Source of the DNA: an uncultured Rhodospirillales bacterium
GTDB taxonomy: Bacteria; Pseudomonadota; Alphaproteobacteria; Acetobacterales; Acetobacteraceae
Assembly (NCBI GenBank): GCA_903924855.1
Contig: CAIYCW010000040.1
Coordinates: 1 to 64,000, forward strand
DNA: 64,000 bases
Direction of reading: 5' to 3'
Part shown: positions 49,435 to 64,000 of the stretch, one piece after another
How the letters are laid out: each line of letters begins with the position of its first letter
Position numbering within the stretch: the stretch's first letter is position 1
The notes under the pieces: model-generated
The model's input: only the letters and a program-made list of their open reading frames with translations
Database searches by the model: none
Told to the model about the DNA's origin: nothing
Translations under genes and position numbers: made by a program

Positions 49435-50781
49435 CTACTTGTTATACACCGCATCCGGCAGCCACATGGCGATGCCGGGCAGGAAGCTGAGGATGACGAC
49501 GCCGATCGCCATCAGCAGCACGAAGGGGATGGTGCCGCGGATGATCGGGCCGAGGCCGATATCGGGGGCGATGCGGTTGATGACGAAGATGTTCAGGCCG
49601 ACCGGCGGGTGGATCAGCCCCATCTCCATCACGATCGCCATCACCACGCCGAACCAGATCAGGTCGAAGCCGGCGGCGCGCAGCGGTGGCAGGATGATGG
49701 GGGCGGTCATCAGGATGATGGAGACCGGCGGCAGGAAGAAGCCGAGGCAGACCACCAGCAGCAGGATGGCGGTGAGCAGCATCCATTTCGACAGATGCAG
49801 TGCCACGATCGCCTCGGCGGCCGATTGGCTGATGTGCAGATAGCTCATCACGTAGGAGTAGAGCAGGCTCATGCCGATGATCATCAGCAGCATGCCGCTT
49901 TCGCCGAGCGTGCCCTGGAAGATGGGTTTGATGTCCGACAGGCGCACGGTGCGGTAGACCACGGCGACCAGGATCATCGCCATGACGGCGCCCAGACCCG
50001 CGGTCTCGGACGGGGTGGCGATGCCGCCATAGAGGGCGACCATCACGCCGGTGAGCAGGACGAGGAAGGGCAGCACGCGCGGCAGCGAGGTGAGGCGCTC
50101 GCGCATGGTGAAATGCTCGTCGGCCAGGATCGGGTGATGGGCGGCTTCGCCCACCGCTCCCTTGGCGGCGCGGGCGTATTCGCGGCGCCATTGGAAGACG
50201 GCGAAGAGGGCGAAGAGGATGACCAGCAGCACGCCCGGGCCGAGGCCTGCGAGGAAGAGGCGGCCGAGCGATTGTTCGGAGGCGACGGCGTAGAGGATCA
50301 GCACGATGGAGGGTGGCAGGAGGATGCCGAGCGTGCCGCCTGCGGCCACCAGCCCTGCCGCGAAGCCGGGGGAATAGCCACGCCTACGCATCTCGGGGAT
50401 GCCGGAGCTGCCGATGGCGGAGCAGGTGGCGGGGCTGGAGCCCGCCATCGCCGCGAACAGGCCGCAGGCCAGCACGACGGCCACGCCAAGCCCGCCCGGC
50501 ACGCGGCCGAGCCAGGTGTGCAGCGCGTCGTAGAGATCCTTGCCGGCGCGGGATTTGCCGATGGCCGCACCCTTGAGGATGAAGAGCGGGATGGTCAGCA
50601 GGGTGATGCTCGCCAGTTCCTCGTAGACATTCTGGGCGATGGTATCGAGCGAGGCCGCCGGCATGAACAGCGCCATGAAGATGGTGGCGACGCCGCCCAG
50701 GGCGAAGGCGATCGGGATGCCGGAGAACAGGGCGGCGATCGTCGCCCCGCCATACATCAGGCCAAGCTGCAGCGTGGTCAT
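49435..50781 (-). CDS. dctM: TRAP transporter large permease (DctM)
   Basis: The 448-residue permease of the ion-coupled TRAP family has twelve or so helices, the motif GGTLGILLPPSIVLILYAV, and GLIHPPVGLNIFVIN near the end. It carries out solute import driven by the cation gradient. The ATG at 50781 overlaps dctQ by four bases; an in-frame start at 50859 falls in dctQ and is rejected. Confidence 0.95.
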   Translation of the reverse strand: MTTLQLGLMYGGATIAALFSGIPIAFALGGVATIFMALFMPAASLDTIAQNVYEELASITLLTIPLFILKGAAIGKSRAGKDLYDALHTWLGRVPGGLGVAVVLACGLFAAMAGSSPATCSAIGSSGIPEMRRRGYSPGFAAGLVAAGGTLGILLPPSIVLILYAVASEQSLGRLFLAGLGPGVLLVILFALFAVFQWRREYARAAKGAVGEAAHHPILADEHFTMRERLTSLPRVLPFLVLLTGVMVALYGGIATPSETAGLGAVMAMILVAVVYRTVRLSDIKPIFQGTLGESGMLLMIIGMSLLYSYVMSYLHISQSAAEAIVALHLSKWMLLTAILLLVVCLGFFLPPVSIILMTAPIILPPLRAAGFDLIWFGVVMAIVMEMGLIHPPVGLNIFVINRIAPDIGLGPIIRGTIPFVLLMAIGVVILSFLPGIAMWLPDAVYNK

Positions 50782-51308
50782 TTCGTTTTCATCACCTGAA
50801 CGGCCTGCTGAACGGCGAGCAACGCCATGCCGGCGGTCATGCACGCATAGGGGATCCACAGGGGCGGACCCCAGGAGGTTGGCGTGGTCTGGTCATCCAC
50901 CCAGGCTTCGACCAGCAGCTGCCAGCTTTTCCAGGTGAAGAAGACAACGAAGATGCAGGCCAGCAGATCGGCCAGGCGCCGGCGCAGCGCGTCCACACGC
51001 GGCGGCAGCAGCATGGAGAGCGCATCGATACCGACATGGCCGCGCCGTGCCTGGGTCCAGGCGGCGGAGCCGAAAGTGGCGCCGATCAGCAGGAAGGTGG
51101 AGAGCTCGTCCTGCCAGTCGCTGGCGATGCCGAGGAAGTAGCGGCCGATCACCTCCCAGGTCAGCACCAGGCCTGCGGCCGTGATGGCGAGGGCCGAGAG
51201 CACGGCGAGCGCGTCGTTGACCACGTTCAGCACCGACTGCACCGCGCCGAGGAGGCCCTCGCGCGGTGCGTCGATCGTGGTCAGATCGAGTTCGGCGTGG
51301 GCTGTCAC
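50778..51308 (-). CDS. dctQ: TRAP transporter small permease (DctQ)
   Basis: The 176-residue protein has four hydrophobic helices: VVNDALAVLSALAITAAGLVLTWEVIGRYFLG, then FLLIGATFGSAAWTQARRGHVGIDAL, the family's conserved region, and two more. It forms the membrane complex with DctM. ATGA-type overlaps join it to both neighbours. Confidence 0.93.
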   Translation of the reverse strand: MTAHAELDLTTIDAPREGLLGAVQSVLNVVNDALAVLSALAITAAGLVLTWEVIGRYFLGIASDWQDELSTFLLIGATFGSAAWTQARRGHVGIDALSMLLPPRVDALRRRLADLLACIFVVFFTWKSWQLLVEAWVDDQTTPTSWGPPLWIPYACMTAGMALLAVQQAVQVMKTK

Positions 51309-52324
51309 GCCACCGCCTCAGCGAGTTTCAGCAGGTCGGCGCAGGACTGGTTGCGCTTGGCGAAATCGGCCCAGGCGGTGGCCTGCGCGATCTGCTTCCA
51401 CTTGCCAAGGGCTGCGTCGTTGAAGTCGGTGACGGCGACGCCGGCCTTGCCGTAGATCTCGGCCAGCTTGTCATCGTCCGCCTTGGCGTTCTGCAGCGCG
51501 AAGGCTTCGAGCTTCTGGCCCACGGTGTCGATCGCCTTGCGGTGCGCCTCGGGCAGGCTGTCATAGATGGATTTGGACATCAGCAGCGGCTCGAACATGA
51601 ACCAGAAGCTGCCCTTGCGGCCGGTGGTGACGTTCTTGGCGATCTCCTGCAGGCGGAACGAGATCAGGCTGGTGGAGGAGGTCACCGCGGCATCCAGCGT
51701 GCCGGTCTGCATGGCGGCGTAGGTTTCCTCCGAGGTGACGGAGGAGATGATGCCACCGGCGTCCTTCAGCATCAGATCCATCTCGCGCGAGCCACCGCGG
51801 ATCTTGAGGCCCTTGGTGTCATCAGGCGAGACGATGCTGCCGGCGCGGCTGGCGACACCGCCGGCCTGCCACACCCAGGTGACGATCTTGACACCCTTGC
51901 TGTCCAGCACCTCGGTGAGGCGCTGGCCGACGGGGGCGGATTTCCAGGCCATGCCCTGCTCATAGGTGGAGACCAGGCAGGGCATCAGGCCGATATTGAC
52001 CTCCGGCACCTCACCGCCGGCATAGGCCAGCGGGTAGGCGGTGAAGTCGAGCGCGCCGCGGCGCACGGCGGAGAACTGTGCCACGGTCTTCATCAGCGAC
52101 GAGCCGGCATAGATCTCGAAGGAGAGTTCGTTGTTGGTGGCGGCGGAGACGTCGCGCGCGAAGATGCGGGCCATGCGGTCGCGGAAATCGCCCTGCTCAA
52201 TGGTGCCGCCGGGGAATTGGTGGCTGATCTTGAGTGTGCGGGTTTCGGCGCGGGCGGAGGTGGCGCGCAAGATGGCGGGGGCGGCCAGCAGGCTGCCCAG
52301 GACGGTGCGGCGAGCGATGGTCAT
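51305..52324 (-). CDS. dctP: TRAP transporter periplasmic solute-binding protein (DctP)
   Basis: The 339-residue protein has a twin-arginine-like signal (MTIARRTVLGSLLAAPAILRATSA) and a DctP fold with KISHQFPGGTIEQGDF, GALDFTAYPLAYAGGEVPE, a central LKIRGGSREMDLMLKDAG and a substrate-binding Arg. The ATG at 52324 has GAGGAA eight bases upstream. It heads a dctP-dctQ-dctM-snoaL operon. Proximity to mobA suggests uptake of an aromatic acid; the ligand is not readable from sequence. Confidence 0.93.
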   Translation of the reverse strand: MTIARRTVLGSLLAAPAILRATSARAETRTLKISHQFPGGTIEQGDFRDRMARIFARDVSAATNNELSFEIYAGSSLMKTVAQFSAVRRGALDFTAYPLAYAGGEVPEVNIGLMPCLVSTYEQGMAWKSAPVGQRLTEVLDSKGVKIVTWVWQAGGVASRAGSIVSPDDTKGLKIRGGSREMDLMLKDAGGIISSVTSEETYAAMQTGTLDAAVTSSTSLISFRLQEIAKNVTTGRKGSFWFMFEPLLMSKSIYDSLPEAHRKAIDTVGQKLEAFALQNAKADDDKLAEIYGKAGVAVTDFNDAALGKWKQIAQATAWADFAKRNQSCADLLKLAEAVA

Positions 52325-52344
52325 GTCGGCATTTCCTCGTGCAG

Positions 52345-52364
52345 CGTGACGGTTATGCGTCACG
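52345..52364. promoter_or_regulatory. Inverted repeat in the dctP promoter region
   Basis: CGTGACG at 52345-52351 and CGTCACG at 52358-52364 form a perfect 7-bp inverted repeat around GTTATG, 21 bases upstream of the dctP ATG. It resembles an operator more than a terminator because no T-tract follows. The rest of the 149-base gap to the next gene shows nothing else. Confidence 0.4.
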
Positions 52365-52473
52365 ATTCTGGGGTGGCTCATAGCGCAGAGCCGCCAAACC
52401 TCAAACAGCCGATTCTTGATGAAACGAACATGAAACCGTCGACAAACGATCACAATAGACGCGACGGCACCGC

Positions 52474-53361
52474 TCAGGTTGGCGGTGCCACATTCATCGC
52501 ACCGGCCGGCGCGGGCGTCTTCATCATCGCACCGGTCATCGGGATGAAGAACACGCCGACATCCTTGCGCGAGTGGATCTTGCCCTGCTCGTCCTTTGTG
52601 TAGACGTAGAGGAACTGGCCGCGCTTGAAGGGCTGGCCGATCGGGATCAGCGCGCGGCCGCCCGGCTTGAGCTGGCGGAACAGCTCGGGCGGGGCGTATT
52701 GCGCGGCGCAGGTGATGATGATGATGTCAAACCCGCCCTCGACCTCGGGCCAGCCGAAATAGCCATCGCCCACGCGGGTCTGCACATTGTCATAGCCGAG
52801 CGGGGCGAAGATCTTGTGCACCGCGTTGCCCAGCGGCTCGATGATCTCGATCGAATAGGCCTGTTTGACGATGCGGCTGAGCAGCGAGCTCTGAAAGCCG
52901 CTGCCGGTGCCGATCTCGAGTGTGACGTCGCCCGGCTTGGGGGCGGCGACCTGGGTCATGTAGGCCTGGCCCAGATAATCCGACAGCGCCGAGCCGTAGC
53001 CGAGCGCCCAGGGTTTCGGGTTTTCCTCGTAGCAGTCGCCGGGCGTCGCGCGCTTCACGTCGTACTGGTAGTGGAAATACTCGCGCGGCACCGCCTCGAA
53101 CGCCGCCATCACGGCGGGATCGGCGGAGCCCAGGCGCTCCTTGAGGTATTTGGCGATCAGCGCCATGGCGGCCGGCTTGCGCTTCTGGATGGCGTCGAAC
53201 TGCGCCTGGCTGAGATCGACCGGCCGGCCCGAGGCGGCCATGGCGGTCATGTAGGCCTCCCGCGTCCAGCCCGTGCTGGTGGCGGCGCGCACATGGGGGG
53301 CGGCCAGCGGCGTTGCAGCGGCGGCTGCGATCAGGCTGCGGCGGGTGATCAATGCGGTCAT
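52474..53361 (-). CDS. Tat-exported isoaspartate O-methyltransferase-like protein
   Basis: The 295-residue protein has a twin-arginine signal (ITRRSLIAAAAATPLAAPHVRA) followed by a PCMT fold: VPREYFHYQY, GSALSDYLGQAYMTQ, and the SAM site LEIGTGSGFQSSLLSRIV with later GGRALIPIG. PCMT repairs isoaspartyl residues in the cytosol; an exported version would need SAM outside, so a different role is possible. The ATG at 53361 overlaps the membrane-protein stop, so they are translated together. Third gene of the operon. Confidence 0.85.
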   Translation of the reverse strand: MTALITRRSLIAAAAATPLAAPHVRAATSTGWTREAYMTAMAASGRPVDLSQAQFDAIQKRKPAAMALIAKYLKERLGSADPAVMAAFEAVPREYFHYQYDVKRATPGDCYEENPKPWALGYGSALSDYLGQAYMTQVAAPKPGDVTLEIGTGSGFQSSLLSRIVKQAYSIEIIEPLGNAVHKIFAPLGYDNVQTRVGDGYFGWPEVEGGFDIIIITCAAQYAPPELFRQLKPGGRALIPIGQPFKRGQFLYVYTKDEQGKIHSRKDVGVFFIPMTGAMMKTPAPAGAMNVAPPT

Positions 53362-55766
53362 GACAAGGCCTTGCCGTCTCGGATGGAATCGCGGGGAAAC
53401 ACTGCGTTGGCCGCCACATACAATGCCAACGCAGAAATAAGAACAGCACTGTGACCGGCCTGCCATGCAATGAGATTGGCAAGCGGCGTGGACACCACGG
53501 AAAACGCGCCGTTCAGCCCCCAGGCCCAGGGCATGAACCCGTCCTTGCCGGTGCCGCTGAGCCCCAGCGGGAATGGCAGGCCAAGGGCGATCGAGATCGG
53601 CGCCACCGCCAGGATCACCAGGGCGGCGCGGCTGAGGAAGCTCAGATCGAGGGTGGACAGGATGGCATCCTGCTGGACGAAGTAGAGCAGTGTGCCCCAG
53701 CCCACGATCACCAGCATGGCGATGTCGATGCCGCGCCTTGGCGTGCGGGCGAAGCGCGCGCTGAGCATGCTGCCGAGACCCGAGAAGATCAGCATCGCGG
53801 TCAGCACGATGGCGAAGCCGCTGGTGCGGTCGTTGAGGTAGAAGCTGGCGCGGTCGATGGCATAGAGCTCCAGGAACAGGAAGCCAAGGCCGAGGCAGGC
53901 GAAGTAGCTGGCCGCCCGCCAGGCGCTGATGCCGGGGGCGCGCACCCGACGCCCCGCCACCAGCGGCACCGCGAGCACCAGCAGCGCGATCACCACCGCC
54001 TGCGCCAGCACCGCCAGATTGACCAGGGCGCCGATCTCCGCCTGTGGCAGGATCTCCAGCCGCGACAGGATGTGGCCGAGCTGCGACAGGCGCAGCACAT
54101 TGTAGAATTCCGGCCGGTCGAACGAGATCGGCCGCAGGTCGAACGCCTCCGCCGAGACGGTGCGTTCGCCGCGCAGCACCGGCAGCGCCTCGTCGGCGAT
54201 GGCGTCGTGTGCGCCCTCCCCTGAGGTCACCTCGCCATCGGTGAACGAGACGGCGGGCAGGTCGTTGAAGATCTCGGGCTTGGGCGCTTTCTCGATGCCG
54301 GGGAAATAGGAGATGTCGAAGCTGCGATCGGCGCAGAATTGCTGGGCGGCGGCGATGCGGGACGCCTGCCAGGCCTCGGGCGAGACCAGGATGCGCACAT
54401 TCCAGGCCGAGCGGTAGACGAGGACATGGTCCTGCGGGTTGGGGATGCCGGCCATCACCAGGGCCGCGCGCACCGTTGCCAGCACGCGCACCGCATAGGC
54501 CGGGAATTCGCGGATCGACACCGGGATCGACACGATGCCGTCATGCGAGAGGGCGCCGAGATAGACGGCGATCGCCTCGGCGGTGAAGGCGGATTGGTTG
54601 GCCTCGGTGGTGTCGACGAACTCGCCTGCGATGTCGATGATGTCGTAGACGGTGCCGCGGGCGGCGGCGAGCGGGCTGCGGCCGCTGGCGATCAGCCGGC
54701 CGTCACTGCTGCGCATCATGCCGCGAAGCGCGGGTTCCGGCTCCAGCACCAGAGCCCCGGTGGCGCCGAGCTGGGCGGCCTCGGCCGGACGGAAGCCGCC
54801 GGAGCTGCCGAGCATCAGCACGCGGGCCTGCGGTTTCAGCGCATAGGGCAAGGCGCCGAGCGTGGCAGGGGCGTAGCCGGCATCGAGCTTGCCGGGCTTG
54901 GGCAGGGCTGCGATGCGGTTGCCGTCGCGATACAGGCCGAGCGTGGTGGGCGGGCCCGGGATGCCCATCGGGCCGGCATCGTTGGAGATGTCGGTGTCCA
55001 CCCGTTCGGTGAAATCATCGAGGATGGTGTAGAGCCCGCGCGCCGAGCGGATCTCGCCCAGGATCTTGGCGTCCGGCGTGTGCAGCGGCGCATAGATCGC
55101 CTTGAAATCGTTGTAATCGGCCTGATTGCCAGCGATCAGCAGTGCCTCCGCCCCGCCAAGGGCGAGCAGCGCCACCGGCAGCACCAGGCGCCAGCGCGGA
55201 ACAAAGCCGGAGGCCAGCGCCAGTGGCACCAGCAGGCAGGGCAGCAGCATGAACGGGTGCACCACCGACATCAGCGCCAGTGCGGCGAGCGAGCCGACGC
55301 CGGCGCCGGTCAGGTCATAGCCATAGACCAGGCCGATCACGCTGTCGTTGAGGACGAAGAACAGGCTGACATAGAGGCCCGCGAGGAAGAAGAATGGCAG
55401 CAGCGCCACGTAATAGAGAAAGATCAGGCCGAGCTGTGGCCACAGCGTGGCCTGGTTCTGCAGTTGCAGCGGGTTGAACGGGTTGGTGGTGACGAAGTGA
55501 AACCCGACAGCTGCCACAACGATCAGACAGGCCGGAAGCCAGGCCTGCAGGAACGCGCCGTGGCGGGCGAAGAACGGCCGCGCCAGCGCCATGGCAACGC
55601 CCGAGAAGGCGAAGCCGGCCAGCACGATGGAGATCACCCAGTAGCCATACTCCGACCATTTCGCGACGGCGAAATACCGGGTCAGCGCGATTTCGAAGCC
55701 CACCGTTGCCAGCGAGACCAGAAACAGCGGTGCGAGTTTCGCCACCGCCGCCATGCGCTGTTTCAT
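53358..55766 (-). CDS. Spermidine-synthase-like polytopic membrane protein
   Basis: The 802-residue protein has about six N-terminal helices, a central soluble Rossmann-like region (ARVLMLGSSGGFRPAEAAQLGA, ALVLEPEPALRGMM) resembling polyamine-synthase/methyltransferase folds, and six more C-terminal helices. Membrane-fused spermidine synthases of this size exist, but the acidic catalytic Asp pair is not evident in LEPEPAL. It is coupled by four-base overlaps to the hydrolase upstream and the Tat PCMT downstream. The biochemical role is unknown. Confidence 0.75.
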   Translation of the reverse strand: MKQRMAAVAKLAPLFLVSLATVGFEIALTRYFAVAKWSEYGYWVISIVLAGFAFSGVAMALARPFFARHGAFLQAWLPACLIVVAAVGFHFVTTNPFNPLQLQNQATLWPQLGLIFLYYVALLPFFFLAGLYVSLFFVLNDSVIGLVYGYDLTGAGVGSLAALALMSVVHPFMLLPCLLVPLALASGFVPRWRLVLPVALLALGGAEALLIAGNQADYNDFKAIYAPLHTPDAKILGEIRSARGLYTILDDFTERVDTDISNDAGPMGIPGPPTTLGLYRDGNRIAALPKPGKLDAGYAPATLGALPYALKPQARVLMLGSSGGFRPAEAAQLGATGALVLEPEPALRGMMRSSDGRLIASGRSPLAAARGTVYDIIDIAGEFVDTTEANQSAFTAEAIAVYLGALSHDGIVSIPVSIREFPAYAVRVLATVRAALVMAGIPNPQDHVLVYRSAWNVRILVSPEAWQASRIAAAQQFCADRSFDISYFPGIEKAPKPEIFNDLPAVSFTDGEVTSGEGAHDAIADEALPVLRGERTVSAEAFDLRPISFDRPEFYNVLRLSQLGHILSRLEILPQAEIGALVNLAVLAQAVVIALLVLAVPLVAGRRVRAPGISAWRAASYFACLGLGFLFLELYAIDRASFYLNDRTSGFAIVLTAMLIFSGLGSMLSARFARTPRRGIDIAMLVIVGWGTLLYFVQQDAILSTLDLSFLSRAALVILAVAPISIALGLPFPLGLSGTGKDGFMPWAWGLNGAFSVVSTPLANLIAWQAGHSAVLISALALYVAANAVFPRDSIRDGKALS

Positions 55767-56638
55767 GGAGTGACCCGCCGCGCCAGGAAGTCTCGCAGCG
55801 CGGTGTTGAACCTTGCAGGATCGTCGACGAACAACGCGTGGCCCAGATCGGGAATCACCATGGTCTCCGCTTGCGGATGATGTGCGGCAAGATTGCCCGC
55901 CTGCCCGGCGAAGGCCGGTCGCACGATGTAGAACACCGGGCACGTGGCCGCATAGACCGCCTCTTTCCAATAGCTGCGCGGCACGGCGTAGGACAGCAAC
56001 TGGCTGGCGGCCCGTTCGGGGGTGCGCAGGGCGGCCTGTGTCAGGCGTTGCAGGTAGGGCTCCGGCACCGGGCGGTGGAACATCGAGCGCACGAAGCCTG
56101 CCATGAACTGGGCATGGGTCTGTGGCGGCACCTTGTGATAGGGCCGGCGCGGTGGGGCGGGGGGCGGGTCCTCCCCCACCGAATTGTCGATCAGCACCAG
56201 GCCTGCCAGCCGGACGTCGCCGTGGGTGTGGATATAGGCCAGGCTGTCGAGTACGCCGAGCGACCAGCCGATCAGCACCACGCGGGCGGGGGCCAGGGCG
56301 TTGATGAGGTCCGCCACATCCTCGCCGCGCCGCGCATAGGTGTAACCCTGATCGGGCACGTCGCTGCTGCCCTGGCCGCGCGGGTCGAGCACCACCACGC
56401 GGTTGGTGCGGGAGAAGGCGTCGATCTGCGGCTGGAAGATCCAGCCCGGCATGGTCCAGCCGGGCACGAAGACCAGAACCGGGGCCGCGCGGGACGGCTG
56501 GGGCTGTGTCGGGCCGAGATCGATGATATGCAGCCGCACGCCGTCACTGGTGGTCAGGATGCGGTCCGCGGCCCGCGCGGACGCGCAGAGGGCCAGCATC
56601 AGAATCGACAGTGACAGGCAAAAGGCGATCTTGCGCAT
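55763..56638 (-). CDS. Secreted alpha/beta hydrolase
   Basis: The 291-residue protein has a signal peptide (MRKIAFCLSLSILMLALCASARA, cleavage about 23), oxyanion FVPGWTMPG, nucleophile Ser126 in GWSLG, an acid near 245 and a His in DLGHALF. It should be periplasmic. It is the first gene of the operon, and its stop overlaps the next ATG. The substrate is unknown. Confidence 0.87.
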   Translation of the reverse strand: MRKIAFCLSLSILMLALCASARAADRILTTSDGVRLHIIDLGPTQPQPSRAAPVLVFVPGWTMPGWIFQPQIDAFSRTNRVVVLDPRGQGSSDVPDQGYTYARRGEDVADLINALAPARVVLIGWSLGVLDSLAYIHTHGDVRLAGLVLIDNSVGEDPPPAPPRRPYHKVPPQTHAQFMAGFVRSMFHRPVPEPYLQRLTQAALRTPERAASQLLSYAVPRSYWKEAVYAATCPVFYIVRPAFAGQAGNLAAHHPQAETMVIPDLGHALFVDDPARFNTALRDFLARRVTP

Positions 56639-56902: not shown

Positions 56903-56992
56903 CCAAACCGCAACGCAGGGGCTGAATTTCGCATGGCGATCGGGGCAGAGCGCTTGCTAGCCTGCTGAAAAATCAGCTTGGGGAAGCGCATC

Positions 56993-57949
56993 ATGAACAT
57001 CACCCGCCGTCATGGCCTGGCTGTTGGGCTGGGGCTTGCCACGTTGTCCGGTGCTGCGCGTGCCGCGGCCCCTTTGGCCAAGATGCAGGCGCCGAGCTTT
57101 TATCGCACCCGCGTGGGTGACACCGAGATCACCATGCTCAATGACGGCATCGGCACGCGGCCGCTCGCCGGCTTTGTGCGCAACGCGTCTGATGCCGAGT
57201 TGCGCCAGGCGCTGGGTGAGGCGTTCCTGCCCAATGATGTCTACACCACCAACTACACGCCGATGGTGATCAACACCGGGCGGAAGCTGATTCTGATCGA
57301 CACCGGCAATGGCGAGTTCGGCAGCGCCGATAACGGCCTGCTGCTGCAGAACTTTTTGGCGGCCGGCTTCACGCCGGATCAGCTCGATGCCGTGGTGTTC
57401 AGCCATTTCCACCCCGATCATTACAACGGTTTTCGCAGGCGTGATGGCAGCCTGGTGTTTCCCAACGCCGAGGTGATGGTGCCCGAGCCGGAATGGAATT
57501 TCTGGATGGATGATGCGCGCATGACCCAGACGCCGGAGGCGCAGCGCGGCAATTTCATGGGTGCCAGGCGCGCGCTGGGCCCGGTTGCAAGGAACGTCAC
57601 GCTGTATCGCTGGGGCCAGGAGGTGGCGCCGGGGGTGCTTGCGATCGCAGCCCCTGGCCACACGCCGGGGCACACGGTGTTTGCCATCACCTCCGGCACG
57701 GCGCGGTTCATGATGATGTCCGACATCACCAACAACACGTCTGTTTTCGTCAAACACCCGGACTGGTCGATGATCCTGGATCTGGACGGTGAGATGGCGC
57801 GCCAGACCCGCCACCGCATGCTGGACATGGCGGCGGCGGAGGGCATGGAGTGCGCGTTCTATCACGCGCCCTTCCCCTCGGTGGGCCATATTCTGCGCAC
57901 CGCCGGCGGCTATGAACTGGTGCCATCACAATGGGTTGCGCGGCTTTAG
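56993..57949 (+). CDS. Tat-exported metallo-beta-lactamase-fold hydrolase
   Basis: The 318-residue protein begins with a twin-arginine signal (ITRRHGLAVGLGLATLSGAARA) and has the metal site HFHPDH (His138, His140, Asp142, His143), a His in GHTPGH and a later Asp in MMSDITNN. Such proteins hydrolyse lactones, thioesters or phosphoesters in the periplasm. The ATG at 56993 has GGGGAAG nearby. It is convergent with the SCO1 gene. Confidence 0.9.
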   Translation: MNITRRHGLAVGLGLATLSGAARAAAPLAKMQAPSFYRTRVGDTEITMLNDGIGTRPLAGFVRNASDAELRQALGEAFLPNDVYTTNYTPMVINTGRKLILIDTGNGEFGSADNGLLLQNFLAAGFTPDQLDAVVFSHFHPDHYNGFRRRDGSLVFPNAEVMVPEPEWNFWMDDARMTQTPEAQRGNFMGARRALGPVARNVTLYRWGQEVAPGVLAIAAPGHTPGHTVFAITSGTARFMMMSDITNNTSVFVKHPDWSMILDLDGEMARQTRHRMLDMAAAEGMECAFYHAPFPSVGHILRTAGGYELVPSQWVARL

Positions 57950-57971: not shown

Positions 57972-58571
57972 TCACCCCGCCAGCTGCGCCTTCAGCGCCG
58001 CCGTCAGTTCCTGCGGCTGCATGCCGGGGCGGAACAGGCTGCGCATCCGGCCATCCGGGCCCATCAGGTAGAGAAACGAGGAATGGTCCATCAGATAGTC
58101 GGTGGTGGCCTTGCTGTCTGAGCGTGCGTAGTAGACGCGATAAGCCTTGGCGACGGCTGCGATCTGTTCGGGCGTGCCGGTGAGGCCTATCAGCCGGTCG
58201 TCGAATTGTTTGGTGTATTCGCCCATCGCCTTGGGCGTGTCGCGCTGCGGGTCGATGGTGATGAACAGCGGCACCAGCTTGGCCGCATCCGGCCCCAGGG
58301 CGGCAAGGCTTGCGGCCACGGTCTGCAGTTCGGTCGGGCAGACATCGGGGCAGAAGGTGTAGCCGAAATAGACCAGCATGAAGCGGCCGCGGAACTGCTG
58401 GTCGGTGACGGTTTTGCCGTCCGGATCGGTGAGGCTGAACGGCCCGCCGATCTGGATCTGGCCGGGCGTGCCTGGCGGTGTGTCGGATTGCATGCGCCAC
58501 CACATGCCCGCCCACAGCCCACCGCCCACCACCAGGATCAGCAAAGCCAGCACGCGTGACAGTCGGGCCAT
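57972..58571 (-). CDS. SCO1/SenC family copper chaperone
   Basis: The 199-residue protein has an N-terminal anchor (RVLALLILVVGGGLWAGMWW) and a thioredoxin fold with the copper-binding CPDVC (Cys74, Cys78) and His163. SCO proteins deliver copper to haem-copper oxidases on the periplasmic side. It lies 70 bases downstream of the giant gene and 16 kb from the cbb3 operon. Confidence 0.93.
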   Translation of the reverse strand: MARLSRVLALLILVVGGGLWAGMWWRMQSDTPPGTPGQIQIGGPFSLTDPDGKTVTDQQFRGRFMLVYFGYTFCPDVCPTELQTVAASLAALGPDAAKLVPLFITIDPQRDTPKAMGEYTKQFDDRLIGLTGTPEQIAAVAKAYRVYYARSDSKATTDYLMDHSSFLYLMGPDGRMRSLFRPGMQPQELTAALKAQLAG

Positions 58572-58641: not shown

Positions 58642-61600
58642 TCAGACGACCAGGCTGTGGCCGATCTGGAGGCTGGAGGCCTGGGTGTTGTGCAGATCGG
58701 CGAGCAGGTAGCTGCCCGCGCTGGTGCCGACCGAGACCACCGTGTCCACCCCGTTCTGCGTCAGCAGCAGGTTGGCGGCGGTGAAGCCGCCCGCCTGCAG
58801 GGCGCCGTGCACGTTGAGCACGTCGCCCTGGGCGGCAGAGAAGCCGGCCACGTCCATCGACACCACGCTCGAACCGATCGGCCCCAGCGCCAGGACGCTG
58901 TAGATGTCATCCCCCGCGGCACCGCCCACGATGGCGTGGCCGGTGGTGACGCTGACATGGTTGCTCCAGCCGGCAAGCGTCACCTGGTCGGTGCCGCCGG
59001 TGATGTTGACCGTGTCCGAGCCGTTGCCCGCGGTGATCGCCCAGCTGCCCGAGCCGGTGTTGACGGTGATCAGGTTGTCGTTGCCGGCCGCCTGGATGGT
59101 GCCGCCATTGGTGCCGCCGGCGGTGCCCACGGTGATCGTGCTCTGCCCCGCCACACCGCCGATGAAGCTCTGCCCGTCACCGATGGTGATCGTGTTGGTG
59201 TAGCCGTAGGTGTCCACCGTGCCGTTGCCGGTCAGCGTGATGGTGGAGCCGCCCAGATTGCCCTGGACGGTGTTGTTGGCGCCACCCATGACGATCGTGT
59301 CCCCCTGGCCGGTGGCCACGAGATCGTTGTTGCCGCCGGACAAATGGAAGGTGGAGTTGCCGTCATCCCCGGTGACGGTGAGGCCGCCATTGGTGTCGGT
59401 GACGTCGTTGTTGTAGCCGAACAGCTGCAGCGCGGTGATGCCGGCGCCGACATTGAGGCCCTGCACGCTGCTGGTCTCGATCAGCGTGGTGACACCCGGC
59501 GTGGCGGGCGCAACCGTGATCACCGGCGGGGTGGCCACCGGCTGCGGGGCCGGTGTGGTGACCACAGGCACGGTGCCTGCGGGCGGCAGGGTGATCGGGG
59601 CCACCGGAACCGGCGTCGTCACCGGGGCGGGGGCGGCGGCGACCGTGCCGCCCGGGGTGGTGAATTGCGGCAGGTCCTGGGTGTTGAAGCTCAGCTCCTC
59701 GATCGGTGCCGCCGTGATGCTGTCGACGAAGGTGAGCCCGTTGCCGTTGACGGCGGTGCCGTTGCCAAGCTGGGTGGGGCCCACGAACTGGATGATGTCG
59801 GTGCTCGACAGCACCAGCTCCTGGATGCCGTTGACCAGTTTGATCACGCCGCTGCCGCTGCTGTAGCCGTAGACGGTGAGCGTATCGACAGAGGCGCGCA
59901 GGCCGTTGTCGATGGTCAGCAGGCCGTCGCCCTTCTCGTAGTAGATGGTGGTGGACAGGCCACCGGTGGTGATCAGCGAGCCGTTGCCGCCGGCGATGAT
60001 GGTGTTGTTGCCGGAGCCCGAATAGACCTGGTTCGCGCCAAGCCCGCCCATCAGATAGGCGTTGCCCGAGCCGCCATCGAGATAGGAGCTGCCGGTGCCG
60101 CCGGCGAACAGGAAGCCGTTGGCGGCCGATTGCGTCTGCGTCTGCAGCGTGCCGCAGCTGGTGCCGATATCCTCGTTGGAGGAGGCGTTCAGACCCAGCT
60201 CGATGATGTTGTTGTTGCCATCGAGCACCACGACGTTGTTACCCGGCGAGCCGGTGTGCACGTTGTTGTCGCCGGGGCCCACGATGACCTGGCCGCCGGT
60301 GAAGCTCGCATATTGCTGACCCTGGGACAGCTGGATCGGCGTTGCGCCGTTGAAGTTGCCGTTGAACTCCAGCCCGGCATTGGCGCTCTGCACCAGGCCG
60401 CCCGGTGCCACCGTCAGAGTGTCGGTCAGGCCCGAGGCGTTGACGTCGCTGTCCAGCAGCGGGTTGCCGCTGGCGTGTTCGACATCGCTGAAATCCATGC
60501 CGGCCGGTGCCACGACCTGCACCGTGTAGGTGCCGGAGGCGAGGTCCTTGAAGTCGTAGCCGCCATGGATGTCCGTGGTGGTGCTGGCGACCTTGTTGCC
60601 CGAGGAGTCGAGCAGGAGGACGGTCACACCGGCGATGCCGGCATCGCCGACATGGTAGGTGCCGCTGCACTGGCCGTCGAAGAACACAAAGGCCTTGATC
60701 TCGCCGGGGGCTGCAACGCCTGCGTCGTTGTGGCCGGTGTCGGTGCCGGAATAGACCTGGATGTTCTGGATGTCGCCCGCCGTGTCGGCGTGGTTGTAGA
60801 CCGTGGCGGTGGGCGATGTTGGGATCTTGGTGATGATCTGATCGGCGCTGGGGATCACCTCGACGCTGTAGGTGCCGGGGATCAGACCGGTGAACTGATA
60901 GTCGCCCACCGTGCCGGAGGCGGTGCTGGTCAGTTGAGCGGTGGTGCTGATGCCGGTGTCGGTGCCGTTGTTGAACAGCTCGACCTTGACGGTCCCGATG
61001 CCGGTCTCGCCGTTGTCCATCTGGCCGTTCTCGTTGGTGTCGAAGAACACCTCGCCGGAGAGCGAGCCGAGCTTGTAGAGGCCGGCATTCTGGTTGGGGG
61101 TGTTTTCGCCGGCATAGACATTCACGGCCGCCGTGGTGCCGGTGGCATCGACGATGCTGTCGATCGCCGCGTTGGCGTTGGTGCCGATCGGCGAATAGCC
61201 GGCATAACCGCTGTCGGTGATCTGGACGTAGTAGCTGCCCTGATCGAGGCCGGTGAAGCTGTAGGCGCCGTTGCTGTCGGTTGCCGTGGTGTCCACCTTG
61301 CCGCCGATCACCACCGGGGCGTGGGTGGTGGCGCTGTAGAGGGTGACGGTGGCGCCGGCGATGGCGTTGTCGGTGAGACCGGAAGCGGTGTCCTTGACGC
61401 CGTTGTCGTTGAAGTCCTGGAACACGATGCCGGACAGCGAGCCGGCCGGCACGTTGAAGCTGGCGGTGCTGTTGGCGCTGACCGCTGCACCGTTGTCGGT
61501 GCCCGGGGCGGTGTATTCGGTGACGACGGCCTTGTTGGAGATCGCATCGCCCACGTGCGAGCCGTTGTTGAGCAGGGTCTGATAGTCGATCTCGATCGAG

Positions 61601-64000
61601 GAGGCCGGGCCATAGAAGCCCTGGCCGTTCAGCGTCTGCTGATCCGGCAGGGTGATGGTGTTGCCGACCGGCGTGATGGTGGAGGTGGTTTTGACGCCGT
61701 TGATGATCTCGGTGACCTGGACCGGGCCGGTGATGGTCTCGGTCGTGGGCACGATGTCGCTGATCGTCACGTCATAGGCGGGCACGTTGTTGGTCGGCGT
61801 GACGGTGATCGTGTAGTCCTGCAGATAGCCAGAGGAGGTGCCGGCGATGGTGGCGGCATCCTCATGGCTGGATTTCACGATGTTCACCGTGGGTGCCACC
61901 ACGGCGACATTGGCCGTGGCCTGCGTGCCCACAGTCTTGCCCGCGGTGACGGTGCTGATCGTGTTCTCCAGGGTCTGGCCGGCGGTGGCCGTGTTGGACA
62001 CCAGCGCCTGGTAGGAGATCGTGACCGTCGAGGGCTGGGTGGCCTTCACCGCGCCGAGGTCGAACTGCACGCCGCCGGAGATGGCGCTTTCGGTGAGTGT
62101 CAGGGCGCCGCCGGTGCTGCTGGTCAAACCGGTGCCGACATTGGTGATGACGGCACTGTTGGCCACGTAGGAGAGGCCGGTGGGCAGCGTGTCCTTCAGG
62201 TCGAGATCGGTCGAGGTGCCTTCCGGCACGGTCACGGTCACGGTGTAGGTGGCGACGTCGCCTGCCTCGATCCGATCACCGGTGGTGCCGTTGGCTGCGT
62301 TGAGCGTGAGGTCGCTCACAGAGGCCAGCGTCTTGGTGGTGGTCGGGTAGGCCAGCGTCACGTTCGCGGTGGAGGACGTGCCGTTATAGGTCTGCTGGGT
62401 GCCCTGCGTGTCGGTGGAGGGCAGCGTCTGGTCGGTGAAGTTCGCCTTGTTGAGGTAGCTGGCGTCGAACGCGTCGGTGGTGTTCACCGTGCCGTCGAAG
62501 GTGATGCTGTAATTGGCGCCGGCATCGACTTCCGGCAGCACGACGGTGAGCACGCCGTTGGTGATGCTGGCCGTGGTCGGGGTGATCAGCGTGGTGCCGT
62601 TATAGACCTGCAGTGAGGAGGCATCGACGTTGATGCCCGTGCCGATCTGGGTGGCCAGGTTGTCGGTGATGGTCACGTTGTAGGCGGTGGCGGCGGTCGA
62701 GGCGTCGGTCACGGCGAGCTTGTACTGAACCTCGTCATTGGCCATCACGCCGGTGATGGTGGATTTGTAGCCGCCACCCTGGGTGACGTTCTCGACCGTC
62801 TTGGTGACGGTCACCTTGGGGGTCAGCAGGTCGACGTTGGCCTGATCCTGAGCGTTGACCGGCGTGGTGCTGCCCGGTGCGGTGGCGGCCACGTTCGCGG
62901 TGTTGGTGAGCACCGTGTCCGGTGCGCCCTTGTTCAGGTTGGACTGGGTGGCGTTGGCAAGGGCGGTGATCGTGTAGGTGATCGTGTCATCACCCGCCTG
63001 GCTGTTGTCGGCCACGACCACATTGTTGAGCGTGATGCCGGAGCTGCTGATGGTGGTGCCCACCAGACCGGCGGCGGGCGCCCCGTTGGCCGAGGTGATG
63101 CCGGCGCCGACCGCGGTGATCTGGGCGGAGACGAAGGACAGGCTCTGCGCGCCGTTGTTGGGCAGCGAGTCGGTCAGATCGACGCTGCCATAGGAGCCGG
63201 CATCGAGGGTGGTGACGACGGTGTAGGTGACCTGTTCGCCCGCGCGCACCGTGACATTGTCCGCGGCGGTGACGGATTCCGAGGTGGAGGTGACGTTCTT
63301 TTTCTCGGTCGGCAGGGCGGTCTGGACCGCGACCGAGGAGGTCAGATTGCCGGGCGACGGGCCGTTGGCGAAGTTGGTGCCGCCGTTGACGCCCTGATAC
63401 TGGGTGACGGTTGCGGTGTTGGTCTCGGTCACCTGCGGCTCGGGCGTGTTGGCGCCCAAGGTTGCGGTGTAGTCGAGCAGCACGATGTCGCTGCCGGTGG
63501 ACGGCGCCGTGCCGTTGTCGGCGCCGATGGAGGCGATGTCCACGCCGGTGCCGTTGAACAGATCGGCCGCCGCCTGCGCGGCGCTGAGTGGGTTAAGCGT
63601 GTTGGGGTCGAACAGCTGGATCGCGTTGCCCGCGCCGTCGGTGGCGGTGACACCGGTCACCGAGCCGGCGGCGATGACGGAGGGCAGGCTGTCCTTGACC
63701 ACGGTGTTGTAGGCGGTCGAGTTGCCGGAGTTCTGCACAGCGATGACGTAGGTGACCTGATCGCCCGCCTGCGCGCCGGTGGCGCCGAAGCCGGGGGCGG
63801 CCACGTTGAGGGCGCCGACATTGCTGTCTGTGATCACGTCGCCGGATTTCAGCACGCCGTTGCTGAAGTCACCGACCTGGGAGCCGGTGAGCACCTCGGT
63901 GGCGCCGGTGGTGCCGGCATGGGAGATGCCGGTGACGCCCTTGATGACGTTGATCTCGGGCTGGGCCAGCACGACCTGTGCGATGCTGCTGCCGGTGGTG
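58642..64000 (-). CDS. Giant repetitive surface/secreted protein, partial at the right edge
   Basis: The frame is open to the window edge (at least 1786 residues), so the N-terminus is missing. From the N-terminal side there are several DUF11-like repeats (TVTKTVENVTQ..., VNIVKSSHEDAA...), three SdrD-type B repeats (61443-60370), a glycine/asparagine-rich hemolysin-like segment (GGSGNAYLMGG), a Pro-rich linker (about 59500-59660), and a beta-roll-like end closing with a hydrophobic QIGHSLVV. It is likely secreted by a type I system (ABC, MFP and TolC genes not in window), or surface-anchored. Function may be adhesion or biofilm (inference). Confidence 0.88.
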   Translation of the reverse strand, partial: TTGSSIAQVVLAQPEINVIKGVTGISHAGTTGATEVLTGSQVGDFSNGVLKSGDVITDSNVGALNVAAPGFGATGAQAGDQVTYVIAVQNSGNSTAYNTVVKDSLPSVIAAGSVTGVTATDGAGNAIQLFDPNTLNPLSAAQAAADLFNGTGVDIASIGADNGTAPSTGSDIVLLDYTATLGANTPEPQVTETNTATVTQYQGVNGGTNFANGPSPGNLTSSVAVQTALPTEKKNVTSTSESVTAADNVTVRAGEQVTYTVVTTLDAGSYGSVDLTDSLPNNGAQSLSFVSAQITAVGAGITSANGAPAAGLVGTTISSSGITLNNVVVADNSQAGDDTITYTITALANATQSNLNKGAPDTVLTNTANVAATAPGSTTPVNAQDQANVDLLTPKVTVTKTVENVTQGGGYKSTITGVMANDEVQYKLAVTDASTAATAYNVTITDNLATQIGTGINVDASSLQVYNGTTLITPTTASITNGVLTVVLPEVDAGANYSITFDGTVNTTDAFDASYLNKANFTDQTLPSTDTQGTQQTYNGTSSTANVTLAYPTTTKTLASVSDLTLNAANGTTGDRIEAGDVATYTVTVTVPEGTSTDLDLKDTLPTGLSYVANSAVITNVGTGLTSSTGGALTLTESAISGGVQFDLGAVKATQPSTVTISYQALVSNTATAGQTLENTISTVTAGKTVGTQATANVAVVAPTVNIVKSSHEDAATIAGTSSGYLQDYTITVTPTNNVPAYDVTISDIVPTTETITGPVQVTEIINGVKTTSTITPVGNTITLPDQQTLNGQGFYGPASSIEIDYQTLLNNGSHVGDAISNKAVVTEYTAPGTDNGAAVSANSTASFNVPAGSLSGIVFQDFNDNGVKDTASGLTDNAIAGATVTLYSATTHAPVVIGGKVDTTATDSNGAYSFTGLDQGSYYVQITDSGYAGYSPIGTNANAAIDSIVDATGTTAAVNVYAGENTPNQNAGLYKLGSLSGEVFFDTNENGQMDNGETGIGTVKVELFNNGTDTGISTTAQLTSTASGTVGDYQFTGLIPGTYSVEVIPSADQIITKIPTSPTATVYNHADTAGDIQNIQVYSGTDTGHNDAGVAAPGEIKAFVFFDGQCSGTYHVGDAGIAGVTVLLLDSSGNKVASTTTDIHGGYDFKDLASGTYTVQVVAPAGMDFSDVEHASGNPLLDSDVNASGLTDTLTVAPGGLVQSANAGLEFNGNFNGATPIQLSQGQQYASFTGGQVIVGPGDNNVHTGSPGNNVVVLDGNNNIIELGLNASSNEDIGTSCGTLQTQTQSAANGFLFAGGTGSSYLDGGSGNAYLMGGLGANQVYSGSGNNTIIAGGNGSLITTGGLSTTIYYEKGDGLLTIDNGLRASVDTLTVYGYSSGSGVIKLVNGIQELVLSSTDIIQFVGPTQLGNGTAVNGNGLTFVDSITAAPIEELSFNTQDLPQFTTPGGTVAAAPAPVTTPVPVAPITLPPAGTVPVVTTPAPQPVATPPVITVAPATPGVTTLIETSSVQGLNVGAGITALQLFGYNNDVTDTNGGLTVTGDDGNSTFHLSGGNNDLVATGQGDTIVMGGANNTVQGNLGGSTITLTGNGTVDTYGYTNTITIGDGQSFIGGVAGQSTITVGTAGGTNGGTIQAAGNDNLITVNTGSGSWAITAGNGSDTVNITGGTDQVTLAGWSNHVSVTTGHAIVGGAAGDDIYSVLALGPIGSSVVSMDVAGFSAAQGDVLNVHGALQAGGFTAANLLLTQNGVDTVVSVGTSAGSYLLADLHNTQASSLQIGHSLVV
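60370..61443 (-). repeat. Three tandem SdrD-type B domains in the giant protein
   Basis: Three units begin near 61443, 61068 and 60705 and are about 375, 363 and 336 bases. The first two start GSLSG-x-VF-D-x-N-x-NG and the third GEIKAFVFFDG, with a later GxYxFxxLxxGxYxVxV core in each. This is the calcium-binding SdrD/CnaB-like fold typical of surface proteins. Confidence 0.75.

Follow-up and report, generated by a model that had tools for sequence, protein, structure and literature searches.

A conserved hydrolase, MFS-SpeE and Tat-type PCMT gene trio in Acetobacteraceae, a subtype of a wider gene pair with a possible role in extracytoplasmic methylation

The window analysed here is a stretch of 64,000 nucleotides from an uncultured Rhodospirillales bacterium of the family Acetobacteraceae, and is part of contig C40 (CAIYCW010000040.1) of an assembly of 154 contigs that is estimated to be 84.5% complete. 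Three adjacent genes on its minus strand (56638-52474) encode a secreted alpha/beta hydrolase (291 aa; 55763-56638), an 802-aa membrane protein (53358-55766) and a 295-aa PCMT-family protein with an N-terminal Tat-type signal (52474-53361). A sequence-only reading had placed three genes joined by four-base overlaps here, which we confirmed: both joints are ATGA on the minus strand, one shared by the hydrolase stop and the membrane protein start (55763-55766) and the other by the membrane protein stop and the PCMT start (53358-53361). Longer open frames exist for the membrane protein (from 55970) and the PCMT (from 53466); the starts at 55766 and 53361 were favoured because of the ATGA overlaps and the N-termini of homologues.

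Genes for a TRAP transporter (DctP/DctQ/DctM; 49435-52453, minus strand) lie directly downstream of the trio, and the DctP N-terminus contains an RR signal-like segment. We rejected the trio as part of a TRAP operon, because TRAP genes follow it only in the window and in four other loci of the window's genus; at one locus of another genus (L065) they are found upstream of the trio on the other strand. Divergent from the trio, a metallo-beta-lactamase-fold protein (PF00753) with an RR signal-like N-terminus is encoded at 56978-57949 on the plus strand, and also occurs in four other loci. Further along the minus strand are a SCO1/SenC-family protein (PF02630, 181 bits; 57972-58571) and, near the window edge, a repetitive surface-type protein of 1776 aa that contains SdrD_B and SpaA domains (58642-63972), whose longer open frame runs to the edge itself.

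The trio was followed in 36 genomes: that of the window itself, seven more from its genus and 28 from the rest of its family. Twenty of these contain the membrane protein, and exactly those 20 also contain the hydrolase (E at most 1e-40); a PCMT with 66% identity or more is present in those 20 and in one more (G014), where it lies at a contig end. In 18 of the 20 genomes all three genes sit side by side on a single contig, and in the other two (G019, G032) the set is divided between contigs. Scanning of named genomes showed the whole trio adjacent in 73 of the best 80 of 232 relatives of the membrane protein, the closest relatives among the matches listed being Acetobacteraceae/Rhodospirillales. 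Four of the seven loci without an adjacent trio end less than 220 bases from the membrane gene match (L095, L131, L149, L150), and in a fifth (L127) the PCMT lies at a contig end, some 1.25 kb farther along. Flanking genes vary among 21 compared trio loci, where no other biosynthetic gene is constant, and this conservation amid variable surroundings led us to reject a chance operon. The trio is therefore conserved elsewhere, as the sequence-only reading needed, except that the hydrolase is not universal: no hydrolase match was found beside L128 and L146 (Brevundimonas; PCMT present), L204 or L205, and a hydrolase essential to the system was rejected on these four loci. An S66 peptidase gene lies upstream of L128. 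At L066 (8439-13988, minus strand; genome G021), MFS-SpeE and PCMT occupy one open frame with no stop between them, which could be a natural fusion or an assembly error.

The hydrolase matches the Pfam family Abhydrolase_6 (66.2 bits, cut-off 26.3), and an alignment of 77 sequences shows S126 and H267 each conserved in 95% or more. Its signal-like N-terminal segment (about 56638-56567, minus strand) recurs as a hydrophobic N-terminus in 75 of 76 hydrolase homologues from trio loci. We consider the hydrolase to be an accessory component that may act on a methyl ester or on the same substrate as the PCMT.

The membrane protein had no Pfam family match, MFS and Spermine_synth included. When 61 family members (60 of the 80 relatives and the window's own, as used for the MFS-SpeE alignment) were compared with Pfam, the best match (E 0.003) was to an unrelated DUF in three members, with no MFS family among the matches listed; a sequence search of the family against PDB chains returned nothing meaningful. 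An AlphaFold model of the protein (mean pLDDT 87, pTM 0.89) had spermidine synthases as its top Foldseek matches (3gjy, E 7.9e-4). Re-examination of the Foldseek candidates with VIA-align ranked MFS transporters first (SV2A 9okg, Z 25.2, rmsd 3.6, 349 aligned; FLVCR2 8qcy, Z 21.6; EfpA 8ufd, Z 18.6; and GLUT3), and placed the spermidine synthase matches at about residues 226-530 (6bq2, Z 14.8, rmsd 3.6, 229 aligned; 3gjy, Z 15.1). The protein, here called MFS-SpeE, is thus predicted from its model to have a 14-helix MFS fold with an inserted spermidine-synthase-fold domain (residues 213-577, between TM7 and TM8; 54036-55130, minus strand). Positive charges, counted over 14 helices with hand-set ends, fall mostly on the loops that place both termini inside and the SpeE domain in the periplasm, and we predict that this domain faces the periplasm. 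The likeness to SV2A is a fold match only, and the fold matches of the membrane protein and of the PCMT are not proof of function.

The description "spermidine-synthase-like" therefore has no counterpart at the sequence level for this membrane protein and gains support from its predicted structure, with distant relatives matching weakly: six that were scanned reached at most 22.0 bits against Spermine_synth (cut-off 22.9), and the best match of distant relatives to the aminopropyltransferase model PRK03612 was E 7.5e-9 (34.5 bits, against a curated cut-off of 472 bits). We inspected the residues of the SpeE domain in its motif-I region. By eye, the wider relatives described below have a GxGGG-like motif followed by an acidic residue, whereas the trio has GxSGG in 58 of 61 sequences and a following [ED]P[ED]P in 44 of 61. 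This replacement of the usual motif, together with the incomplete retention of the acidic one, suggests that the trio's SpeE domain is possibly degenerate, and it may bind no nucleoside.

The PCMT of the window begins MTALITRRSLIAAAAATPLAAPHVRA. Its Tat-type segment (residues 1-26; 53284-53361, minus strand) reads TRRSLIA and then a hydrophobic stretch, and cleavage would be expected near HVRA-A. The RR pair is invariant in 18 of 18 aligned PCMTs; by rule, RR with an uncharged hydrophobic stretch was found in 73 of 76 PCMT homologues, with RR visible in the other three, and in only 17 of the 76 hydrolases encoded at those loci. Five Caulobacterales loci (L128, L135, L138 of Caulobacter ginsengisoli, L139, L146) have RR followed by the lipobox LA[AG]CD, a Tat lipoprotein signal with Asp at +2; the lipobox rule picked up a sixth locus (L085, GAACA), apparently by chance. 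Tat exports folded proteins, and in E. coli lipoproteins with Asp at +2 stay in the inner membrane. PCMTs of distant relatives have Sec-like or Tat signals, and 34 of 36 measurable PCMTs of the wider pairs reach a mean hydropathy of 1.6 over 14 residues, the two lowest (1.39) being one place counted twice. Of nine control PCMTs, the four that were measured reached up to 1.13, two had no upstream sequence and three were not measurable, one of which (L030) is itself of the exported type. The earlier proposal that the RR segment is a Tat signal was thus borne out, as far as sequence can tell, by its conservation and by its replacement with a Tat lipoprotein form.

The PCMT matches PF01135 (126.4 bits, cut-off 20.3) and falls below the curated NCBIfam cut-offs for PIMT (PRK00312, 144.5 against 188; TIGR00080, 108.6 against 159.05). 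Its model has the PIMT fold (Foldseek E 2.1e-16 to 3lbf), with moderate confidence (pLDDT 75) that is poorest near an altered loop (residues 117-123). We aligned 52 trio PCMTs (51 of the 76 matches and the window's own, leaving out four truncated sequences and others). SAM motif I, LEIGTGSG (residues 148-155; 52897-52920, minus strand), is present in 49 of the 52, IEII, with the acidic residue that follows motif I, in 51, and GDG in all; the form E[IVL]GTGS[GA] is present in all 30 aligned PCMTs of the pairs. Three loop types were distinguished among these PCMTs, namely QTISQP, VTISGPH and the trio's SxLSDYLGQAYM, which is found in all 52 trio sequences. PCMTs of the wider pairs keep, after GxGxT, the canonical S-x-P loop of the kind carried by solved PIMTs, which has a role in isoaspartate binding; trio PCMTs lack it and have GYGSALSDYLGQAYM in its place in the window (residues 121-135; 52957-53001, minus strand). 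The window's genome has one other PCMT match above 32 bits, L002 on contig C13 (88.9 bits), which is 26% identical to the trio PCMT.

Beyond the trio, a family profile matched 26 genomes of 385 sampled Alphaproteobacteria, a few of them weakly. A PCMT gene was found near MFS-SpeE in 20 of 24 wider loci, upstream in 18 and downstream in two (L204, L205); at L184 it lies 5 kb upstream. Of the four loci without a near PCMT, two (L206, L207) are weak partial matches. The other two belong to genomes considered as having MFS-SpeE without a PCMT (G220, G392) and rejected as such, since both encode a cognate PCMT elsewhere (82% identical to that of L200), the one in G220 with one internal stop. The hydrolase profile had no match in the 24 wider loci. 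At L205 (10515-12221, plus strand; genome G221), two tandem trio-type PCMTs lie behind one MFS-SpeE, and this genome additionally carries a pair of the other type (L203).

Among 398 sampled Pseudomonadota, 165 matched at E 1e-3, largely via nothing more than the SpeE domain. A PCMT lies within the 1.5 kb flank of every one of the 22 returned loci of at least 452 bits; these 22, which were scored for the PCMT, include the window and two loci already in the class sample (G098, G101). A strong partial MFS-SpeE match (G580:C165, 609.6 bits) was not among the 22. No PCMT was present in the 1.5 kb flank of the eight loci returned with about 240 bits or less, nor in the 19 kb around two of them. Searches of plasmids yielded 7 and 8 records, most of them partial matches. 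Plasmid-borne pairs occur in Phyllobacterium zundukense, in Microvirga sp. VF16 (with transposases nearby) and in Paraburkholderia sp. PGU19, where the partners are annotated as "protein-L-isoaspartate(D-aspartate) O-methyltransferase" and "SAM-dependent methyltransferase"; in Rhizobium jaguaris the PCMT and MFS-SpeE genes are divergent. Occurrence of the same pair on plasmids and in varied taxa shows that the pairing persists across orders and replicons.

We compared the partners across 54 loci, nine of them picked from the 80 trio loci, of which 52 had both proteins. In 51 of the 52, the nearest MFS-SpeE relative has the same PCMT loop type; the remaining locus carries a variant of the trio loop that differs by one residue. 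Pairwise distances of the two proteins correlate over the 52 loci (r 0.84; 0.89, 0.74 and 0.51 within types), a correlation also expected from common descent. The core of the system is an exported PCMT with MFS-SpeE, found well beyond the window's lineage, and the trio is a subtype of it.

PCMT export is wider than this partnership. In the best 30 PCMT loci obtained with one exported PCMT as the query, 13 have a hydrophobic N-terminus and 17 do not; MFS-SpeE lies beside five of the 13 and none of the 17. Eight of the 13 exported PCMTs have no MFS-SpeE within 1.5 kb (L273, L274, L276, L278, L279, L283, L299, L301), on which we rejected the proposition that an exported PCMT always needs MFS-SpeE; two of those genomes carry MFS-SpeE elsewhere (G051, G347) and six have no match. 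Comparison of the wider neighbourhoods of seven of these eight loci and three additional matches showed no common neighbour, except between L303 and L304, which are close relatives, and for one frame shared by L306 and L311. SAM motifs are clearly damaged in L299 and L301, and L273 reads GIGGG. The idea that loss of the partner equals loss of the SAM site was dropped, since only L299 and L301 are clearly damaged and the motif-I Ser also varies in cytosolic PCMTs.

To our knowledge, SAM is not expected to cross membranes unaided, and SAM-dependent enzymes are for this reason regarded as cytoplasmic. Export of a PCMT is unusual, since the methyl donor that it needs is believed to be confined to the cell interior. 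The sequence-only reading had argued that such export makes sense only with a methyl donor outside or with a different cofactor, or if the PCMT has a new task, for instance modifying a periplasmic substrate made by the membrane protein. Since the SAM motifs are intact in the PCMT, availability of SAM outside is more likely than use of a different cofactor. The soluble domain of the membrane protein is likewise predicted to be periplasmic. The membrane protein is transporter-like and may therefore supply the donor rather than make the substrate.

Our preferred reading, which we hold tentatively and with less than even confidence, is that these genes form a module at the inner membrane and periplasm for extracytoplasmic carboxyl methylation, with MFS-SpeE supplying or handling the methyl donor. 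The PCMT, predicted to be exported by Tat (or in relatives through Sec-like or Tat-lipoprotein signals), would meet the donor at the outer face of the inner membrane. The MFS part may carry S-adenosylmethionine or a closely related compound through the membrane, or swap it for the spent product; the donor may then be received or handed on by the SpeE-fold domain. In pairs with the canonical loop, the PCMT would methylate isoaspartyl residues in envelope proteins or peptides. The changed loop and the hydrolase of the trio suggest another carboxyl acceptor in that subtype, where the hydrolase would be accessory. The identities of donor and acceptor and the role of the hydrolase are putative, and architecture and co-occurrence are what point to donor supply. 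SAM handling by MFS-SpeE is likewise putative, which we counted against the mechanism, as we did the exported PCMTs without an adjacent partner and the degenerate-looking SpeE domain of the trio. A broader version, which we regard as somewhat doubtful, is a general periplasmic system in which MFS-SpeE moves SAM across the inner membrane and retrieves the spent product, the pair repairs isoaspartyl damage in the envelope, and the trio of Acetobacteraceae and Caulobacterales is a derived form with a new target and an added hydrolase.

A different and rather unlikely possibility, close to what the sequence-only reading had in mind, is that the genes serve a pathway for a small molecule on the outer side of the inner membrane. 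MFS-SpeE would export a polyamine- or lipid-like compound, modify it or do both, the PCMT would methylate this compound instead of a protein, and the hydrolase would finish it. The union of an MFS fold with an aminopropyltransferase fold would suit such a pathway, as would the altered PCMT loop and the secreted hydrolase of the trio; however, PCMTs of the wider pairs retain the canonical PIMT loop, the 24 wider loci showed no hydrolase of this family, and the trio has no further constant biosynthetic neighbour. Less probable again is that the exported PCMT fold no longer uses SAM and binds or chaperones damaged envelope proteins, with MFS-SpeE as a sensor or another kind of transporter. The damaged motifs of the two partnerless PCMTs, and the general expectation that the periplasm holds no SAM, are in line with this, but retention of the SAM motifs in 49-52 of the 52 trio PCMTs and in every aligned pair PCMT speaks against it. 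We consider it improbable that Tat carries the folded PCMT out together with bound SAM, and that the enzyme acts once or rarely, with MFS-SpeE as no more than its membrane anchor or docking site: the folded cargo of Tat, the strongly conserved RR of the trio and the Asp+2 lipoproteins of Caulobacterales would allow it, yet many wider pairs have Sec-like signals without RR, by which a bound cofactor would not travel, and a 14-TM MFS fold exceeds a mere anchor. That the RR segment is no signal and the PCMT is cytosolic is very improbable, for although export is a prediction, RR is kept while the rest of the segment diverges, relatives substitute Tat-lipoprotein or Sec-like signals, and the measurable control PCMTs have no such segment.

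If extracytoplasmic methylation of this kind is correct, Bacteria would possess a general system for it. The widespread pairing of an exported PCMT with intact SAM motifs and a transporter-like partner with a SAM-enzyme fold predicted on its outer face makes the presence of extracytoplasmic SAM directly testable. Periplasmic proteins can age and form isoaspartate, and we found no described repair route for periplasmic isoaspartate in the open-licence PubMed Central literature. Among the matches listed from that literature, available to us in excerpt, there was also no described periplasmic PCMT, MFS-SpeE operon or bacterial periplasmic SAM transporter, in agreement with the earlier remark that no pathway of this composition had been described. 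The individual parts are all variants of known folds, and it is their combination that lacks a described counterpart in these open-licence excerpts.

The PCMT shares its fold, Pfam domain and SAM motifs with PIMT (Pcm; PF01135; PDB 3lbf, 4l7v), and the pair relatives also share the loop; it differs in its predicted export, in scoring below the curated cut-offs and, in the trio, in the loop GSALSDYLGQAYM. E. coli Pcm has been argued, in the part of that work available to us, to salvage aspartate from isoaspartyl peptides (PMC10857468). Another alphaproteobacterial protein of PCMT fold is a chain of the respiratory complex I of Paracoccus denitrificans (PDB 8qby, chain t), to which the trio PCMT is only 18% identical in the structural match. 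The soluble domain of MFS-SpeE has the SpeE fold of spermidine synthase and of the membrane polyamine aminopropyltransferase (PF01564, PRK03612), whereas the membrane protein matches neither model and carries the domain within a 14-TM protein of MFS fold. With MFS transporters such as SV2A, FLVCR2 and EfpA it shares its predicted membrane fold, but it has no MFS Pfam match and includes the SpeE-fold domain, and its transporter role is a prediction from the model. The closest analogy in how the system might work is MsrPQ, in which an exported enzyme is fed by an inner-membrane partner. MsrPQ is an envelope system for the repair of methionine sulfoxide in periplasmic proteins, as described in the portion of the source available to us (PMC12503329). 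The likeness would lie in the mending of periplasmic proteins by an envelope system, with different enzymes and chemistry and with no homology claimed.
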